In this document: piece after piece, positions 34,781 through 43,595 of the stretch
How the letters are laid out: each line of letters starts with the position of its first letter
Numbering within the stretch: position 1 is the stretch's first letter
Assembly: GCA_937967455.1 (NCBI GenBank)
Contig: CALCJK010000012.1
Span: 62,001-126,000 of the forward strand
Reading direction: 5' to 3'
Length of the DNA: 64,000 nucleotides
From: an uncultured bacterium
Lineage (GTDB): Bacteria; Bacteroidota; Ignavibacteria; UBA10030; BY39
Program-made: the position numbers and the translations under genes
The notes under the pieces: model-generated
Seen by the model: only the letters and a program-made list of their open reading frames with translations
The model's database searches: none
Told to the model about the DNA's origin: nothing

Positions 34781-34908
34781 ACAGCTCCTCTGATTGTTTT
34801 CGATTAAATTTTTTAAAATTACTTTTTAAAGATAAGAAGGAGAAAGATTTAATACAAATTTTTTGTATTTATTTTCTTAAAATGATTAAAATTTCAAAGA
34901 TTTTTAAA

Positions 34909-34928
34909 AATACCCCTAATGGGGTATT
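34909..34928. promoter_or_regulatory. Perfect 8-bp inverted repeat, candidate operator (CsoR/CstR-like)
   Basis: Half-sites AATACCCC and GGGGTATT separated by TAAT. The core TACCCC-N4-GGGGTA resembles operators of CsoR/CstR-family copper or persulfide sensors. TTGACT begins in the last two bases of the repeat (34927-34932) and TATAAT is at 34955-34960, though their 22-base spacing is not ideal. It lies about 78 bases before peptide A and about 130 bases upstream of the divergent fumarase. A bidirectional terminator is less likely because no gene ends here. Confidence 0.45.
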
Positions 34929-35006
34929 GACTTTTTGAAGTTTGAAAAATAAATTATAATCGTTAATTAATAAAAAGTGGCTAAAAATAAATGAAAGGGT
35001 AAAAAA

Positions 35007-35244
35007 ATGAAAGTATTTTTAATTAAGTTTACTAATTCTTCTGATATTCCATTTATATAATCCTATTCCTGCTATTTAGGATACAAACCCAACTTCTTTC
35101 CAATGCCTTTCTGCTCTTGAAAGATGTAAAAAATCTTGTTATGAAGTATATAAAGAGTCATGGTACTTAAGAATGGCATGTGTATCCGGATGTTATTTAG
35201 CATTTATGAATTGTCATCTTGGAGATCCAATAGGTATATTATAA
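35007..35244 (+). pseudogene. Six-cysteine secreted peptide A, broken by frameshift and amber codon
   Basis: ATG 35007 has GAAAGGG just upstream. Read in that frame it ends after 17 codons (35058-35060). Removing one A at 35021-35022 gives a fine signal peptide, MKVFLLSLLILLIF...PIPA, then an in-frame TAG at 35077-35079, then a mature peptide to TAA 35242-35244. The core has six cysteines spaced x6, x3, x13, x3, x6, identical to the intact peptide at 39085; 15 of the 37 core residues match. No alternative start lies between the TAG and the first cysteine. Either a recent pseudogene or partly sequencing error. Confidence 0.72.
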
Positions 35245-35258
35245 TTAGGTATTAATTT

Positions 35259-36209
35259 ATGTTATTTTTAGTAATTTTTTTGTTTGTAAGTTTAACTAAT
35301 TCTGCTTTAGCTCAAACAAAAAGCTATAACAGTAATCAAGCAGTAGGTTCGATTGAAAGAATTTTTTCAATTGAATCTACTGCTCAAGATTTATTATTGC
35401 AAATTGATGATATCCAGGTATTAAGTAATGAAGAAATATTACTTGCTGATAATTTAGATTTATCTGTTAAAGTATATAATAAGGAAGGAATATTAAAAAA
35501 GAAGTTATCTATTAATGAGATTAGGGATTTGAATTATAAATTTCCATTTCGAATCGCAAAATCCGATAATTATCTCGCAATTGTTGCTTACAACACTCCA
35601 TATATTTACATCTTATCGAGTAAATATGAATATTTAAGAACCATTAAAACTAAAGGTATTGTATTTGAAATTGGTATCGACAAGGATGAAAATATTTGGA
35701 CTGGAGTTAATACAGGTATAAAGTATTACACATTGTTTAAATATGATATTAACGGAAATGTTTTAGATACAATTCCTCTGAAGAATTCAACAGGTAATTT
35801 ATTACAAGATTTTTTTCATTTTGTTATTACTGAAGAAGGATATATTATAGTAACTTATATATATCTTAATAAAATTGAAATTTGGAAAACCAATGGAGAT
35901 TTCATAAGAGAATTTTCAATTAAAGATATGCCGTTAAAGCCGGAATATATAGATACAGAAGATATAAAAGTTCCCAAGGGAGTTATAATTGGCAGTGTAA
36001 CATACATTAATGAAGAGTTGTATTTATTAGGCGGACATTACACAGAAAAACCTTTTAAAGATATTTATGTGTATAATATTCTGGGTGAGTATATTAAGAA
36101 GTTAATTCTTTCAGATGCAGCATCACAAATTTATATCACAAGTAATAAATTTTTGTATGCAGTCGAAAATAAAAAAACCAAGGTTTCTAAATATAAGATT
36201 AATGATTAA
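35259..36209 (+). CDS. Secreted six-bladed beta-propeller-like protein A
   Basis: 316 residues with signal peptide 1-18 (ending ALAQ). The rest is all-beta with blade-like repeats of about 45 residues: VKVYNKEGILKKKL, IYILSSKYEYLRTI, LFKYDINGNVLDT, IEIWKTNGDFIREF, IYVYNILGEYIKKL. This matches NHL/TolB-like six-bladed propellers such as the BF3164-like family of Bacteroidota. Clear homologue of the copy B protein (IPLKNSTG / IPLKHSSG, YVYNILGEY / YVMNILGEF). No lipobox. Probably periplasmic, binding a peptide or partner; function unknown. 14 bases after the peptide A stop. Confidence 0.78.
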   Translation: MLFLVIFLFVSLTNSALAQTKSYNSNQAVGSIERIFSIESTAQDLLLQIDDIQVLSNEEILLADNLDLSVKVYNKEGILKKKLSINEIRDLNYKFPFRIAKSDNYLAIVAYNTPYIYILSSKYEYLRTIKTKGIVFEIGIDKDENIWTGVNTGIKYYTLFKYDINGNVLDTIPLKNSTGNLLQDFFHFVITEEGYIIVTYIYLNKIEIWKTNGDFIREFSIKDMPLKPEYIDTEDIKVPKGVIIGSVTYINEELYLLGGHYTEKPFKDIYVYNILGEYIKKLILSDAASQIYITSNKFLYAVENKKTKVSKYKIND

Positions 36210-36244: not shown

Positions 36245-36716
36245 ATGAAAAATAATATCAGGAGAATTTTTTTCTTCTTATTTATAATAATACTTTTTAC
36301 CATTGTTACTTATAATATTTCTAAGAAAGAAAGAATAGATATTAAGATTCATGAATTTGATTCAATTGTAAGGCAAATTATTGATTCTATAGTTATTAAT
36401 ACAAATAAAAAATTTTACGCAATAACATTTATTGATCCATTAGACTTTAATTGTCCACCGTGTTTCAACAATATAATTTCTTATTTGAGATTTATTAAAG
36501 ATAATGGTGTTGACCAGGATTTGCCAATATTTTAAAATGACAAGAGTTTTAATCAACTATGGTATAGATTTAGAGTTCAAAAGATTAAATAATTTAAAAG
36601 ATTTAGAAAAAAGTATTGTATTTATTATCAATAACAAAAAAGAAATTATTTGTAATTTTGAGTTTCCAATCACAGAAGAAGACAAAAGAATAATAATGTC
36701 TTATATTAATAATTAA
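36245..36716 (+). pseudogene. Membrane-anchored CxxC thioredoxin-like protein A, frameshifted
   Basis: The first frame (36245-36535) encodes an N-terminal transmembrane helix (IFFFLFIIILFTIVTY) and FNCPPCFNNII, a thioredoxin-type CPPC site. It stops just after DLPIF. The +1 frame continues at once with KMTRVLINYGIDLEFK and ends in IINNKKEIICNFEFP, matching VSDKNRKILFAG in the copy B protein. Deleting one T from the run at 36530-36533 joins the two into about 157 residues. Probable single-base frameshift. Programmed slippage or assembly error are possible. Confidence 0.68.
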
Positions 36717-36719
36717 ATT

Positions 36720-37589
36720 ATGATACGTATTAAGAATTTAACTAAGATCTACAAAAAAAATATAATTGCATTAAGAAATATAACAATAGATTTACCTAAT
36801 AATAATATTATTGCTATCCTGGGATTAAATGGGGCTGGTAAAAGCACTTTGATGAAAATCTTATTAGGTTTAGTAAAACCAACTTCTGGTTACGTAAATA
36901 TTAATGATAGTGGTGAGGTTTCTAAATTTAAATTCTCATATTTGCCGGAAAATTTTCTCATGGATAAAAACATTAAGGTCATTGACTTTTTACAGTTCTT
37001 TGGCAAACTTTATGGAATTGAAAAAAATAAATTAAATATTTCTATCGAACAATATTTGCATTTATTTGAAATCTATGATTTCAGAAATAAAAAAATGGGA
37101 GATTTGTCTAAAGGAATGAATATTAAAGTTGGACTCATACAAGCCCTTCTCAAAAAAGCTGATTATTATTTGTTAGATGAACCTACAGAGGGATTAGATC
37201 CAATTTCAAGATTGAAGATGAGAGAAATTATATTTAAGCTTAAATCGGAGGGTTCGACGGTTATAATTAATTCTCATATATTAGCAGAGTTAGAACTATT
37301 CGCAGATTTCTATGTAATATTGCACAAAGGTGAATTAATAGATTATAAGTTCTCAAAGGACCTTTCAGGTCAAGCTAAATATGAAGTTGAAATCTCAGAA
37401 TTACCCAAGGATAATTATTTTAATTATATGAAAAAAGATTCAAGCTGGATTTGTAATATTAATGGGATAGAAAACCTTAAAGATTTTATAACTCATATTG
37501 ACTCAATGTCCATAAAAATTTTAAATATTAAGCCTATAACATCTTCACTGGAAGAATATTTTAATTCGCTGATACAAAAGCAAATATGA
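36720..37589 (+). CDS. ABC transporter ATPase A (CcmA/DrrA-like)
   Basis: 289 residues. Walker A GLNGAGKST, Q-loop region YLPENFLM, signature LSKGMN (in place of LSGGQ), Walker B YYLLDEPTEGLDP, switch histidine INSHILAE. A roughly 70-residue C-terminal extension resembles that of ABC-2 exporter ATPases. Cytoplasmic, powers the two permeases that follow; overlaps permease 1 by 4 bases. Starts 3 bases after the thioredoxin-like pseudogene. Confidence 0.93.
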   Translation: MIRIKNLTKIYKKNIIALRNITIDLPNNNIIAILGLNGAGKSTLMKILLGLVKPTSGYVNINDSGEVSKFKFSYLPENFLMDKNIKVIDFLQFFGKLYGIEKNKLNISIEQYLHLFEIYDFRNKKMGDLSKGMNIKVGLIQALLKKADYYLLDEPTEGLDPISRLKMREIIFKLKSEGSTVIINSHILAELELFADFYVILHKGELIDYKFSKDLSGQAKYEVEISELPKDNYFNYMKKDSSWICNINGIENLKDFITHIDSMSIKILNIKPITSSLEEYFNSLIQKQI

Positions 37590-38386
37590 ATACTTTGATA
37601 AAATATACATTCAGAAATGTATTTTATAATCCCTTAGTTAATATTTTAAATTGTTTACAATTAATAATAATTATTATATGTACTTTTTTCTTGAATTTTA
37701 TTTATGACAGTTCTGGTCAAATTGCTATTGTAAAAATTTTCGGTAGTAATATATTGGCAAATATTTTCTTTAACGAGATACTTCCTACGTTAAGTTATCT
37801 TTTAATTTTTGTAATCCTTATCATTATAATAATCTCTTTTGGCAATTTATACACAAGGTTGTATAATAATCCATTCAATAAACTGATATTAATTAGTAAT
37901 ATCTCAAGGGTAAAATTAATTTTATGTGGTTTCTCAGGAATAAATTTGTATTTTTTAATTAATTTTGCATTCTTTTCAACCGCTCTATCTTTAATAATAT
38001 ATTTCAAAACTGATGATTTTATAACAGAAGCTTTCATTTTATTTACTAACCTTTTTCTTTTTTTGTTATCGCTTTCGGTTATTATTAATTTATTTGGTTT
38101 TTTATTAAAAAATGAATCAATATCTTCACTTATCGGTATATTATTTCCAGTTCTTATATCTCCATACATATCAAAAGTAGTAAATAATGCTGATCCTTTT
38201 TTAGAAAAAATTTTATTGGCGATATATTACTTAATTCCTCCTTTAACTATAGAACTAGATAATAGTTTAAAAATTTACGACACACATATTTATAATATGG
38301 ATAAGATATTATTAACGATACCTTATATTTTCTTTTATCTTTTAATAGTTTTATACCTCTTTAAAAAAGTAGACATTAATGATTAG
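37586..38386 (+). CDS. ABC-2-type permease A1
   Basis: 266 residues, six predicted membrane helices, very A+T-rich. Opens with NTLIKYTFRNVFYNPLVN, an amphipathic coupling segment also found at the start of permease B1 (TKINLRSLFINPV). No catalytic domain. Together with A2 and the ATPase it makes a one-ATPase/two-permease exporter like LanFEG-type immunity transporters. Overlaps the ATPase gene by 4 bases and the next gene by 8. Confidence 0.72.
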   Translation: MNTLIKYTFRNVFYNPLVNILNCLQLIIIIICTFFLNFIYDSSGQIAIVKIFGSNILANIFFNEILPTLSYLLIFVILIIIIISFGNLYTRLYNNPFNKLILISNISRVKLILCGFSGINLYFLINFAFFSTALSLIIYFKTDDFITEAFILFTNLFLFLLSLSVIINLFGFLLKNESISSLIGILFPVLISPYISKVVNNADPFLEKILLAIYYLIPPLTIELDNSLKIYDTHIYNMDKILLTIPYIFFYLLIVLYLFKKVDIND

Positions 38387-39038
38387 TGCGAATAATAATG
38401 AATTAAAAAAGTATATTATTTGGTTTGTAATATTTTTTATTTCAACAAATCTGTTTGCAGGATATATTTATTCCACAAATAAAATTATACAGGAAAAAAT
38501 AATTGAACAAATTGAAAAGAAAATTTCCGATAAATATATTGTGGAAATGACAAGATTAGGGATGGAAACCAATCGTAACAATAAGGCGTTTGTTTTGTAC
38601 ATGACAATTAATTTTGCTTTTCAAAAATTGTATTCGTTGTTTTTATTTATTCTTATATGTTGGGGGTTATTTAGCTTGTGGTTTGATACTCGTTTATCTT
38701 TTAAAAACATTACAATTGCTGGTTTAACATCTAGTTTTATTCTAGCAGTTGGTACCTTAATAGATATGGCTTTGATTTTCATCACTGGTCAAATAGGTTC
38801 GCATTTTGGGTTAACATTATTTATAAATACTTTCGGATTACATCATTTATTAACTCGTATCATCCGAAATTTTAATATTATAACTCTTCTTTTCATTGGA
38901 TATTTTTCATTACTGGTAAGCAAACTATATAATGAGAAATTGATTGTACTCTTTATTTTATCATTTATTTCTGTTTTAAGCTTAATTCTTGTTACATATT
39001 TAGTTGGCATTCATTTAGATTTGCATACTGGGTTTTAG
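38379..39038 (+). CDS. Membrane protein / permease A2 (Yip1-like layout)
   Basis: 219 residues, about six hydrophobic helices, with a charged extracytoplasmic stretch after the first. It is a homologue of the last protein of copy B: EMTRLGMETNRNNKAF / EMTEKGINAIIHNPAM after helix 1, and NTFGLHHLL / NYYSLHPFI later. The family is not certain; a Yip1-type or second ABC permease role fits. Last gene of copy A; a short gap leads to peptide B. Confidence 0.62.
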   Translation: MISANNNELKKYIIWFVIFFISTNLFAGYIYSTNKIIQEKIIEQIEKKISDKYIVEMTRLGMETNRNNKAFVLYMTINFAFQKLYSLFLFILICWGLFSLWFDTRLSFKNITIAGLTSSFILAVGTLIDMALIFITGQIGSHFGLTLFINTFGLHHLLTRIIRNFNIITLLFIGYFSLLVSKLYNEKLIVLFILSFISVLSLILVTYLVGIHLDLHTGF

Positions 39039-39084: not shown

Positions 39085-39327
39085 ATGATAATAGTAATTT
39101 TAAATTACAAGAAAATATATTATGCTATTTTGATGTTGGCATTTTTAACATCTAATAATTTTACAATCAATCAAGTTTACGCAGTAGAAGAAAGCTGGTG
39201 TTTGATAGCTTTAAGAAGATGCGTAGCTGAGTGTAAACGTACATTTGGTGAATCTAACCCAATTACATGGAGCTGTATCACAGGTTGTAATATAGCTTAT
39301 TTAAATTGCATATATGATATTTTTTAA
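39085..39327 (+). CDS. Secreted six-cysteine peptide B
   Basis: 80 residues. Sec signal peptide about 1-33 (hydrophobic YYAILMLAFLTS, cleavage near QVYA), leaving about 47 residues. Six cysteines spaced x6, x3, x13, x3, x6. The spacing is mirror-symmetric; in a helix the first three fall at i, i+7, i+11 and the last three at j, j+4, j+11, so they can staple two antiparallel helices. The inner C-x3-C...C-x3-C pair recalls plant alpha-hairpinins. I know no named family. Likely roles: bacteriocin-like toxin, signal peptide or metal/redox peptide, processed and exported by the genes after it. Confidence 0.7.
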   Translation: MIIVILNYKKIYYAILMLAFLTSNNFTINQVYAVEESWCLIALRRCVAECKRTFGESNPITWSCITGCNIAYLNCIYDIF

Positions 39328-39371: not shown

Positions 39372-40340
39372 ATGAAGTTAATATCTTTTCTTTTAATAAT
39401 TATAGGATCTTTATTATCTCAAGAAGCGAATAATCAGCATCAAAATCTATTTGTTGCTAGGGCACAACATTTATTAACGATCACAAGCTCAAATAAAGAT
39501 ACATTATTTCGTGCATATGATTTATACGTCAGTCCAGGGGGAGATATTTATATTGCAGATCAAGTCGAAGATTGTATAAAGATATTTAATCAAAATGGCA
39601 AATTGATAAAAAAGTTTGGCAAGACTGGGAGTAAACCTGGCGAGTTTAATACAATAGGTGAAATAGCTATATCAGAAAATTATATTGCTATATCAGATTA
39701 CATATCCTCCCGACTGCAAATTTTTTCAAAGGATTTTAAGCATATTCGAACAATTTATGCACAAGGAATTGTTTTTGATTTGGCTTTTGATTCTGATGAA
39801 TTTTTATGGGTTGGGGCATTTACTGGCAAGAAAAACAAAACCCTATTTAAATATTCTAAAGAGAGCAATAAAATCATACAAATTATTCCTCTAAAGCATT
39901 CGAGTGGTGATCAGTTTAAAGATATATTTTTTCTCGCAATTTCTAAAGATGGCTATGTGGTTATAGCATATCGTGTTTTAAATAGAATCGAAGTTTGGGA
40001 TAAGTCAGGTAAGTTTATTCGAGATTTTCAAGTACCAGGACTGAAATCGGAAGCTGATAGTAAAAAGATTTCGACAGGATTATTTTCAAGTACCAGAGTA
40101 CCAGATGGAATAATTTTTGGTTTTTGTAGTGTAAACGATTCTGGAGATATTTTTCTAATTGGGGGGAGCTACTCTGAAAATCCTGCAAGGGATTTATATG
40201 TAATGAATATCTTAGGAGAATTTCATGCAAGAATTACAATGCCAGAGAAAGTATGGAAATTTTATATGCAAGATAAAACAAATATTTATGTAGTAAGTGG
40301 GAAAGAGCTTAATTTTGTGAAGAAATATTTATTAAGATAA
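39372..40340 (+). CDS. Secreted six-bladed beta-propeller-like protein B
   Basis: 322 residues, signal peptide about 1-18. Blade repeats typical of NHL propellers: VSPGGDIYIADQ...IKIFNQNGKLIKKFGKTG, IAISDYISSRLQIFSK, LFKYSKESNKII, IEVWDKSGKFIRDF, DLYVMNILGEFHARI. Homologue of the copy A propeller across its length. Such proteins lie next to thioredoxin-like and small peptide genes in other Bacteroidota, from memory. Two unpaired-looking cysteines (VEDCIK, FGFCSV). Probable periplasmic binding partner of the peptide. Stop shares a base with the next start. Confidence 0.8.
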   Translation: MKLISFLLIIIGSLLSQEANNQHQNLFVARAQHLLTITSSNKDTLFRAYDLYVSPGGDIYIADQVEDCIKIFNQNGKLIKKFGKTGSKPGEFNTIGEIAISENYIAISDYISSRLQIFSKDFKHIRTIYAQGIVFDLAFDSDEFLWVGAFTGKKNKTLFKYSKESNKIIQIIPLKHSSGDQFKDIFFLAISKDGYVVIAYRVLNRIEVWDKSGKFIRDFQVPGLKSEADSKKISTGLFSSTRVPDGIIFGFCSVNDSGDIFLIGGSYSENPARDLYVMNILGEFHARITMPEKVWKFYMQDKTNIYVVSGKELNFVKKYLLR

Positions 40341-41233
40341 TGATATTTTTTTTAAAAAAATTTTTGCCTCTGTTTACAGGTTTATTAATAATCTGTACTA
40401 ATATTTTAAAGTTAATCTATTTTGAAGATTTTTTATTTTCTTTAATATGGAACTCTATTGTATTAACTTTTTTATTATTTCTTTTGGGATGTGCGAGCGC
40501 ATTAATGTTAATAATAAGGAAACAAATTTATCTATTTGCAATTATTCTTTTAGTTTTATTTTCATTTGAGTTATTCAATTATTCACATAAAACTCTCAAT
40601 ACTGGCTATTTTTCAGGAAGTTTGTTTTTGAGAACTGAGTATCTCATTGCTTTGCTTTTTTTATTTAATTTAACTGCATTAACTGCATATGTGTTTTCTA
40701 AAAAAGAATTTATGTACAGAAATAATATCTCTAACTTATTAATATCTATATTTATAATTGCATTTTTATTGTGGTTTGAATATGAATTTATTTCAAGCAA
40801 CTTTAAACTAAAAACAAGGCAAGAAAATGAAATCCAGATTCTAACCCAAATTTCTAATTCTTTTAATGATATTGATAAAGAGAAATTTGTAAAGCTCGAA
40901 TATTTTTCAATAAATAGTTATATTGATTGTAAACCATGTTTTGAAAAATTACTTAAATTTAATAATTTTGTAATTGAGAATAAAGAGATCTTTGAAAAAA
41001 TTTCAATTTTAGGTATTATAATAAATGATTCTAATGATGATAGCGTCCATGTATTGGAGAGGATTAATAAATGGAAAGAAACTTACAACATTCAAATTCC
41101 AATAAAATTCTTTTGTCTAAAAAATTATGATGAAAATTTCCAGAATTATATCATCGTTTCTGATAAAAATCGTAAAATATTATTTGCAGGTAAATGGCAT
41201 CCTAGAATTATAAATATTTTAAAAAAATTATAA
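40340..41233 (+). CDS. Polytopic membrane protein with C-terminal CxxC thioredoxin-like domain B
   Basis: 297 residues. Residues 1-155 hold about four to five membrane helices (FLPLFTGLLIICTNIL, IVLTFLLFLLGCASALML, IYLFAIILLVLFSF, LIALLFLFNLTALTAYV, LISIFIIAFLLWF). The outer domain has INSYIDCKPCFEKLLKF, a CKPC redox site, and ends with IIVSDKNRKILFAGKWHP. The layout recalls MauE/DoxX-like membrane domains fused to a redoxin, which support disulfide formation or reduction. Likely acts on the six-Cys peptide. Copy A has only one membrane helix. Direction of electron flow is not decided. Confidence 0.75.
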   Translation: MIFFLKKFLPLFTGLLIICTNILKLIYFEDFLFSLIWNSIVLTFLLFLLGCASALMLIIRKQIYLFAIILLVLFSFELFNYSHKTLNTGYFSGSLFLRTEYLIALLFLFNLTALTAYVFSKKEFMYRNNISNLLISIFIIAFLLWFEYEFISSNFKLKTRQENEIQILTQISNSFNDIDKEKFVKLEYFSINSYIDCKPCFEKLLKFNNFVIENKEIFEKISILGIIINDSNDDSVHVLERINKWKETYNIQIPIKFFCLKNYDENFQNYIIVSDKNRKILFAGKWHPRIINILKKL

Positions 41234-41249
41234 AGATAATCTTTCTTTA

Positions 41250-42161
41250 ATGCAAGAAAAATTTATTGAGATCAAGAATTTGAACAAAACCTATCGTGGT
41301 AAAATTAAGGCTTTGAAAAATGTTTCGCTGGATATTTACCAGGGAGAAGTTCTGGCATTGATAGGACTAAACGGTGCAGGTAAATCAACACTTGTGAAAA
41401 TTTTGCTTCAGCTTGTAATACCTGATTCAGGAGAGATTTTATTTAACACAAAATTATTCGACAGATCAGGTATTAAGAATTCAATAGCATATTTGCCTGA
41501 GTTGTTTAGAATCCCTCCGGATATGAAAGCATATACATTTTTAAAATATATGGGAGAATTAAGTGGGTTGAATAAAAGTGAAATCCAAAAAAAAATAATA
41601 GACATCTCACATACACTTCAACTTGAAAAATGGTTAAATAAACCAGCTAAAAAATTTTCTAAAGGTATGATGCTAAAATTAGGAATTGCTCAAACTCTTT
41701 TAGATGATTATTTATTATATGTCTTGGATGAACCAACTGAAGGTCTTGATCCTATCGCCCGAAGAACAGTAAGAGATATAATCAAATCCTTACAAGATAA
41801 GGGCTGTACTTTTATTATTAACTCACATATGTTATCCGAAATTGAGCTTGTTGCTGATAGGTTTGCCATAATTCACCAGGGTGAGATAATAAATATAGGC
41901 AAAGTTAATGAGTTGTTACGTGGGAAGCCTGTATATGAAGTGGTTGCAAATGTAAATCCAAATTTAACTCAATGGCAATTTTATGAATATAATTCATTAT
42001 GGAAATGTTCTGTTAGTACACCTGAAGAATTAAATTTGCTCTTAAATGATTTAAACAATTCCTCGGTTAAAGTGCATAATATTTCAATGAATACACTTAA
42101 TTTAGAAGATTTATTTTTACAAAATATCTTTGCAAGAGATGTGGACAATAACAAAAATTAA
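41250..42161 (+). CDS. ABC transporter ATPase B (CcmA/DrrA-like)
   Basis: 303 residues. Walker A GLNGAGKST, signature FSKGMM (not LSGGQ; the SKGM form is shared with copy A), Walker B LYVLDEPTEGLDP, switch histidine INSHMLSE. A C-terminal extension of about 75 residues is as in copy A. Ends inside the next gene, consistent with tight coupling to the permease. Exports or expels the cassette's product; substrate inferred, not shown. Confidence 0.94.
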   Translation: MQEKFIEIKNLNKTYRGKIKALKNVSLDIYQGEVLALIGLNGAGKSTLVKILLQLVIPDSGEILFNTKLFDRSGIKNSIAYLPELFRIPPDMKAYTFLKYMGELSGLNKSEIQKKIIDISHTLQLEKWLNKPAKKFSKGMMLKLGIAQTLLDDYLLYVLDEPTEGLDPIARRTVRDIIKSLQDKGCTFIINSHMLSEIELVADRFAIIHQGEIINIGKVNELLRGKPVYEVVANVNPNLTQWQFYEYNSLWKCSVSTPEELNLLLNDLNNSSVKVHNISMNTLNLEDLFLQNIFARDVDNNKN

Positions 42162-42924
42162 TTTAAGAAGTTTATTTATAAACCCAGTTATAATTTTGAT
42201 ATACATAATTGAAGTACCTGTATTATTGTTATTAATTTTTGGAATTAAGATAAATGTCGAAAACGGTATTGTAAATTCTCTTATATTTTTTAACAGAAAT
42301 ATAGATGATGTGGGTATATTAATTAATTTTAGTTTGCCTTATTTATTACAAATTTATATTTTTATACATGTCTTTTTGTATATAATAACGACCGGGGGAA
42401 TTACATTGAGTATCATAAAAAGCCCAATATCTTCTATCATTTTAACCAAAGAAATTACAAGAAATCAATATATAATTGCACAATATTTGAGTTATAACTT
42501 TTTTATAATTATACATCTTTTAGTTTTTGGAACATTGATATTTTTAGTTTTATACATAAAAACTCATCTTTTATTATTTGAAGAGGTTTTTTTACCTTGC
42601 TTGCATATTACCTTTTTAATGAGCTCATATACAATGATTTATTCACTATTGGGTGTGATAGTTGATAGTGAAACTTTCGTTCTTGCGTTCGGATTCATAA
42701 TTTATTTTTACTTAGGTTATCATATAGAAAATATCACAATTGAAAATGGTTTATTTTTTAATATTATAAAATATATTTTTCCACCAATTTTAAGTATTAA
42801 GGAATACAATATTATTATTGACATTGATTCCTTAGATTTATTCAAAATTGGGCTGAATATATTTTACATTGTTATCTACCTTTTAATAACAATACTGATT
42901 TATAGGAAGAAAGATTTATCGTAA
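42139..42924 (+). CDS. ABC-2-type permease B1
   Basis: About 261 residues from ATG 42139; a TTG three codons upstream (42130) is possible. It overlaps the ATPase gene by 23 bases. Six predicted membrane helices. Begins MWTITKINLRSLFINPV, like permease A1. ILTKEITRNQYIIAQYLSY resembles the cytoplasmic loop of ABC-2 permeases. No other domain. Confidence 0.72.
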   Translation: MWTITKINLRSLFINPVIILIYIIEVPVLLLLIFGIKINVENGIVNSLIFFNRNIDDVGILINFSLPYLLQIYIFIHVFLYIITTGGITLSIIKSPISSIILTKEITRNQYIIAQYLSYNFFIIIHLLVFGTLIFLVLYIKTHLLLFEEVFLPCLHITFLMSSYTMIYSLLGVIVDSETFVLAFGFIIYFYLGYHIENITIENGLFFNIIKYIFPPILSIKEYNIIIDIDSLDLFKIGLNIFYIVIYLLITILIYRKKDLS

Positions 42925-42932
42925 TGGTGTAA

Positions 42933-43595
42933 ATGATTAAGTTTTTATATAATATAAATAGTTTGTTAAATGATTACCATAAAAATTTGTTATTTATATT
43001 TTATCTTGCAACTGTTTTTATCTTGAATTATCTTCTTTTGTCGAATGAGGATTATCTTAGGGTAGTATTTGAGAAGGCAAGTACTTCGGTAGAGAATAAA
43101 GAAATGATAGAAATGACAGAAAAGGGCATAAATGCAATTATACATAATCCCGCTATGATTTTACTATTAAGTTTAGAACAGGTTTGGAAAAATGCCTATT
43201 CAATATCATTGCTAATCATTATGTGCTATTTGTTTGTGTCATTTTATACGAACAACTGGATCTCGATCTTAAAAATATATTATCTGTTTATGTCAGTAAT
43301 AATAATTTTAATATTTGGGTTAATTTTAAGCTTTAGTTTAAAGTATCTAACTTATATTTCAATTTCATGGTTTGAATTTGGAACTTATTTCAACTATTAT
43401 TCACTACATCCATTCATTAAAAAACTTTCGAGCGGGTATGAAGCGTTTACAATTTTATTTTTATTTGCCTCTTCAAAAATTATCTCAGTTCAGTATCAAG
43501 AAAAATTTATAGCAGTTTTTTTTCTTATAAATTTATCCTGGCTAATAATTATAATAATTTCTTATTTTGCTGGTTTTAGTGTTTCGCTAAGTTGA
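42933..43595 (+). CDS. Membrane protein / permease B2
   Basis: 220 residues, about six hydrophobic helices with an extracytoplasmic charged stretch after helix 1 (VFEKASTSVENKEMIEMTEKG). Homologue of A2 by the shared EMT-x-x-G and N-x-x-x-LH motifs. Second membrane partner of the exporter or a Yip1-like accessory. Its 3' end overlaps the convergent hemY gene by 9 bases, so there is no room for a separate terminator. Confidence 0.6.
   Translation: MIKFLYNINSLLNDYHKNLLFIFYLATVFILNYLLLSNEDYLRVVFEKASTSVENKEMIEMTEKGINAIIHNPAMILLLSLEQVWKNAYSISLLIIMCYLFVSFYTNNWISILKIYYLFMSVIIILIFGLILSFSLKYLTYISISWFEFGTYFNYYSLHPFIKKLSSGYEAFTILFLFASSKIISVQYQEKFIAVFFLINLSWLIIIIISYFAGFSVSLS

Follow-up and report, generated by a model that had tools for sequence, protein, structure and literature searches.

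A probable, partly decayed copy of a six-cysteine peptide cassette in Ignavibacteria, with an apparent internal deletion in its thioredoxin-like gene

The methylamine dehydrogenase gene set includes the small cysteine-rich protein MauA and the propeller MauB, and the maturation of this enzyme resembles the gene cassette described here in bringing together, in one operon, a MauE homologue, a thioredoxin-like partner, a small cysteine-rich protein and a propeller. The cassette differs in its six-bladed DUF5128 propeller, predicted two-helix hairpin and ABC exporter, and the likeness is one of possible working only. Candidate RiPP clusters of Streptomyces, reported with decRiPPter, hold MauE/MauD homologues beside cysteine-rich precursors, with MauE (and in one family also MauD) proposed to act on the precursor (PMC7794033). 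These clusters, however, belong to Actinobacteria, their precursors contain at least eight cysteines, and no propeller or ABC set is mentioned in the available part of that source (PMC7794033); in the present cassette, by comparison, the MauE and thioredoxin-like domains form one fused protein, and the cysteines of the peptide number six, with mirror-image spacing. Protection ABC systems of the LanFEG type for lantibiotics (TIGR03740) likewise place an ATPase and two membrane proteins beside a small peptide gene, but the copy A ATPase is not a member of this family (139.1 bits against a cut-off of 309.75). ABC genes present without the peptide are also seen in enterocin ABC resistance without production, as far as the available part of the source describes it (PMC10598978); the enterocin bacteriocins are known, whereas activity and immunity function are putative for the cassette.

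The window, i.e., the whole 64-kb stretch of DNA analyzed, carries two copies of the cassette, A and B, whose features are collected in Table 1.

Table 1. Features of cassette copies A and B, with positions in the window, strand and basis of assignment.
Feature	Position	Strand	Basis
Conserved block with 18-bp palindrome	34907..34937	.	Putative operator/promoter-like function
Copy A peptide gene, broken	35007..35244	+	Three-frame reading, peptide profile, Cys spacing
Copy A six-bladed beta-propeller-like protein, open	35259..36209	+	Profile E 6e-113 (itself a member of the propeller profile)
Copy A thioredoxin-like 5' piece, CPPC	36245..36535	+	ORF, profile
Likeliest zone of frame change and internal deletion	36484..36513	+	Junction scan, frameshift-aware alignment
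T run, not the favored junction	36530..36533	+	Junction scan
Copy A thioredoxin-like 3' piece, other frame	36504..36716	+	ORF, profile, junction scan
Copy A ABC ATPase, open, invariant residues all kept	36720..37589	+	Profile, alignment
Copy A ABC permease-like membrane protein, open	37586..38386	+	ORF, profile
Copy A second membrane protein, open	38379..39038	+	ORF, profile
Copy B peptide: hydrophobic leader and six-Cys core, predicted two-helix hairpin	39085..39327	+	
Copy B beta-propeller	39372..40340	+	PF17170 DUF5128, 28.6 bits, cut-off 22.9
Copy B MauE-like membrane domain fused to thioredoxin-like domain, CKPC	40340..41233	+	
Copy B ABC ATPase	41250..42161	+	ORF, profile
Copy B permease-like protein	42130..42924	+	ORF, profile
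Copy B second membrane protein	42933..43595	+	ORF, profile

Judged from its gene content, the cassette is a real family composed of a six-Cys peptide, a beta-propeller, a MauE/thioredoxin-like fusion and an ABC exporter. Twenty-two peptide matches, located in the window and the fetched loci with our own profiles, were examined. The propeller adjoined the peptide in all 22; the thioredoxin-like gene came next in 17 (that of copy A as two pieces), was missing in four and was cut by the contig end in one. The ATPase was found in the same gene run in 14 of these 22 loci and further off in two, and was absent within about 7 kb in another two; the remaining four loci are cut by the end of the stretch or contig. 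Since the propeller is constant and the ABC part optional, gene content suggests that the hydrophobic leader, and not the ABC part, carries the peptide across the inner membrane. No modifying enzyme besides the redox fusion was seen in the cassette. Within the order, the cassette was detected in 15 of 98 genomes by propeller and in 17 of 98 by peptide (G044 giving a weak peptide match only), and across the phylum in 8 of the 395 genomes sampled. Literature searches, within the search terms and library covered, returned no description of it. Four loci (L075, L076, L077 and L078), from three genomes that belong to the phylum but not to the class, combine peptide, propeller, ATPase and permease without a thioredoxin-like gene.

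The peptide of copy B was modeled from its single sequence as a two-helix hairpin in the mature part (block-mean pLDDT 94-96, residues 41-70), and a fold search with this model returned no match below E 2.7. The leader of the copy A peptide is broken. Three-frame reading placed the leader in a frame (35007-35060) that ends early in TAA and the core (35080-35244) in another, separated by at least two frame changes or by one rearrangement, and the remnant, interrupted by a stop, was recognized by the peptide profile at E 5.5e-11. All six cysteines of the copy A core are in register, with the same 6-3-13-3-6 spacing as copy B; the general pattern C-x6-C-x3-C-x(8-17)-C-x3-C-x6-C was observed in 10 of 12 aligned family members and in variant form in two. 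With a core as clean as this, the loss in copy A may simply be recent.

An earlier note had described the thioredoxin-like gene of copy A as split by a one-base frameshift at the T run, such that reads with three T would restore one intact gene. The sequence and the ORF list bear out the layout that it described: two overlapping plus-strand ORFs (36245-36535 and 36504-36716) lie in different, adjacent frames, the first containing CPPC and being closed at the T run (36530-36533) by a TAA at 36533-36535, read as TTT-TAA. For comparison, relatives of the cassette were gathered from the 98 genomes of the order and their thioredoxin-like parts compared, and the resulting profile (excluding G060, C2b and C2c, which are cut by unknown bases or of another type) matched both pieces with E-values of 1.5e-6 and 8.8e-5, profile E-values in this work including the profiles' own members. 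As both pieces match one profile, they represent a single gene rather than two ORFs that happen to overlap.

The single-base character of the event was contradicted by both length and alignment. The distance from CxxC to stop is 250 nt in copy A versus 291-336 nt in all 14 intact relatives used. A junction scan over all joins ended the first piece at 36484-36505 and started the second at 36510-36516, with a best score of 62.2; in these best joins of the two frames, 24-31 profile columns are absent, among them those of the strand that follows the CxxC helix; CPPC itself is present. Joining at the T run scored 48.5, with 18 profile columns still absent. Similarity to the family, moreover, is already seen in the second frame 20 nt ahead of the T run, and this frame is coding-like from about 36510-36516, its residues TRICQYF (36513-36533) aligning with the RINxW stretch of the family. 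At most penalties tried, a frameshift-aware alignment located the change near 36488, and 22 columns were absent; the loosest penalties added more frame changes, the harshest frameshift and gap penalties collapsed the alignment to the first piece alone, and the controls, copy B and G003, aligned without any frame change. Taken together, the length deficit and the early coding of the second frame locate the frame change within about 36484-36513, coupled to a deletion. The deletion was read against relatives of about 20-40% identity, as no copy A orthologue was found in any genome examined, and its exact ends are therefore uncertain.

A single-base frameshift at the T run was accordingly ruled out on the CxxC-to-stop length and the junction scores, and we consider it very probable from these comparisons that the gene was killed by an internal deletion together with a frame change. 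With its frame broken and its conserved core lost relative to intact homologues, as expected of a pseudogene, it looks like an internally deleted one that a recount of reads could not restore, since the missing stretch would stay missing whatever the number of T. Assembly or sequencing error, with the gene intact in the organism, was also considered. The genome of the window is assembled in 39 contigs, but a missing stretch cannot be a miscounted base, the copy A peptide has further frame changes and the rest of the 64 kb appears undamaged, which makes this explanation very unlikely. Programmed +1 frameshifting at TTT-TAA, yielding one functional protein, is about as improbable. Shifting is favored where a UUU codon stands before a stop with a further U, as at the copy A site. 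Against it, none of the 14 intact relatives used for comparison has a frame change at the junction, a core strand would be absent from the joined product, and, as noted, coding in the second frame begins 5' of the T run.

Copy A also departs from its relatives at the N-terminus of the redox protein, where 69 residues precede CxxC, compared with 156-225 in nine fusions and 65-80 in three short forms. The long-form N-terminal membrane domain of its nearest relatives is absent. MauE (PF07291) was above the cut-off of 27 in three of the five homologues scanned (54.1, 60.5 and 64.4 bits), with one weak match (12.1 bits) and one homologue without a match; the Pfam scan did not detect it in copy B itself. 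In trees, copy A grouped with copy B, G001 and G003, with a support of 0.964 for the propeller and weaker values at other nodes. The sets used for trees and identities comprised 14 propellers, 10 ATPases, 10 permeases and 8 second membrane proteins, and are limited to relatives for which the fetched stretch included the gene. Because the trees place copy A by the long-form copy B, G001 and G003, it has likely lost the MauE domain, a conclusion drawn from trees in which several inner nodes are weakly supported. A start of ORF 36245-36535 precisely at the last MauE helix, suggested by visual inspection, found no support in a shuffle test. The redox fusion of copy B was modeled as strand-helix-strand-helix-strand-strand at low confidence (pLDDT 44), so that only the order of elements is usable, and gave no thioredoxin match in Pfam or among PDB sequences.

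The remainder of copy A, and of the window, was found in good order. Sixty-one non-overlapping ORFs of at least 80 aa span 61,197 of its 64,000 bases, and no broken genes were found in it beyond the copy A peptide and thioredoxin-like gene. Damage is indeed confined to these two, as had been claimed, with the propeller, the ATPase and both membrane proteins open. The copy A ATPase keeps 34 of the 34 residues that are invariant in the other nine sequences, and the copy A propeller, which gives sub-threshold Kelch matches only, is yet homologous to that of copy B over its length. Lineage-specific changes of copy A against copy B were 140:103, 144:117 and 145:114 with three outgroups (p 0.02, 0.11 and 0.06), and against G003 152:98, 148:111 and 139:112 (p 0.0008, 0.025 and 0.10); outgroup G029 gave 140:103 and 152:98, and the two other outgroups gave weaker or non-significant results. 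Copy A thus appears to have evolved somewhat faster than its sister copies, which fits relaxation.

Two further cassettes show other degrees of loss, and neither has a peptide match. The same-genus MAG Ignavibacteriae bacterium BY39 (G001) carries one cassette at the same site, between fumarase and hemG, with the other five genes open and a peptide region holding no start-to-stop frame like that of the family. Lineage-specific changes over the five genes were 100:120 for G001 versus copy B (p 0.20, G003 as outgroup), and no relaxation of the G001 machinery was apparent from this comparison; dN/dS for the pair of copy B and G001 came to 0.11 to 0.36, rough values since dS exceeds 1. On contig 2 of the window's genome (L015 7468-9816), the propeller, ATPase and permease are in pieces, the thioredoxin-like piece is open and the gene order is different. 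Intact, partly decayed and largely decayed copies thus coexist in one genome, beside a same-genus genome lacking the peptide only, and this graded set makes it testable whether the machinery outlives its product for a reason. A split gene alone would be ordinary decay; the peptide-propeller-redox-ABC cassette around it is the more useful and interesting observation.

Our preferred explanation, to which we assign a probability of roughly 0.75, is that copy A, an old and diverged paralogue of the peptide cassette, has by now decayed in part. Where the cassette is intact, the six-Cys peptide would be brought to the periplasm by its Sec-type leader and would fold, probably aided by the MauE/thioredoxin-like fusion, as a disulfide-zipped helical hairpin. 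It may then work with the beta-propeller as partner, and the ABC proteins could either carry it onward or shield the cell against it. The thioredoxin-like gene of copy A would have been killed by the internal deletion that removed the strand after the CxxC helix, and the peptide leader was broken; with an intact redox gene in the neighboring copy B, copy A may have been able to dispense with its own. Whether the open genes of copy A reflect selection, e.g., for immunity, or too little time for decay is in our estimate close to an even choice. More tentatively, and with a good deal of doubt, the loci may represent a so far undescribed peptide family that occurs in Ignavibacteria and elsewhere in the phylum. 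Its members would be secreted helical hairpins with six cysteines, each with a propeller as partner and often with a MauE/thioredoxin-like fusion that matures it; the peptide gene would be lost time and again, the propeller, redox and ABC genes being normally constrained. If so, the machinery would be useful without its own peptide, in resistance to, or use of, the peptides of neighbors.

The earlier note had gone further, proposing a change of one base at the T run, loss of the product and selective retention of the exporter as an immunity or resistance function, which we judge possible but less likely than not. Lesions were found in only two of the six copy A genes; by length alone, the chance of three lesions all falling in these two is about 0.006, and that of these being the two genes lost about 0.025, both figures being post hoc. 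The intact ATPase residues also point this way, as does G001, where the peptide was lost and all other genes were kept without acceleration, and in enterocins resistance has been transferred without bacteriocin production through an ABC-transporter immunity gene, according to the available part of the source (PMC10598978). Against the proposal, the thioredoxin-like split is not a one-base event and copy A is mildly accelerated; the propeller was kept as well, so that the retained part is not just an exporter; and the contig 2 cassette lost its exporter too, which counts against a general rule of machinery retention. What survives of the proposal is the possibility that machinery is kept after product loss, with one independent case, G001, which strengthens it more than copy A does. 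Alternatively, the machinery of copy A, and of G001, could serve in trans a peptide encoded elsewhere. The constraint on all five non-peptide genes of G001 and the position of the copy B peptide directly beside copy A would suit such a role, and peptides of other families, including a Cys-rich candidate on contig 2, could be substrates. At E 0.01 or better, however, the whole G001 genome yielded no family peptide, and the window's genome none beyond those of copies A and B; we regard service in trans as unlikely. The partly decayed paralogue remains our preferred reading of copy A.

Upstream of the cassette lies the palindrome ATACCCCTAATGGGGTAT (ATACCCC-N4-GGGGTAT, 34910-34927), running into TTGAC. 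A single occurrence of this pattern was found in each of two genomes, that of the window and G001, in both cases upstream of the cassette, and its exact form was not found in three other family genomes. The block is conserved between the species of the window and G001; it is possibly an operator- or promoter-like site, and its conservation suggests that regulation of the cassette site has been kept in both genomes.

Two additional observations concern other loci. In G017 (L037 1177-2151), the damage runs the other way, with an in-frame TAA in the propeller and an intact peptide. The minus-strand gene at L015 12010-12264, on contig 2 of the window's genome, encodes a protein of 84 aa that looks secreted and has a Cys-rich pattern of another kind; it adjoins another propeller and thioredoxin-like genes, and may represent a second peptide family of the same style.
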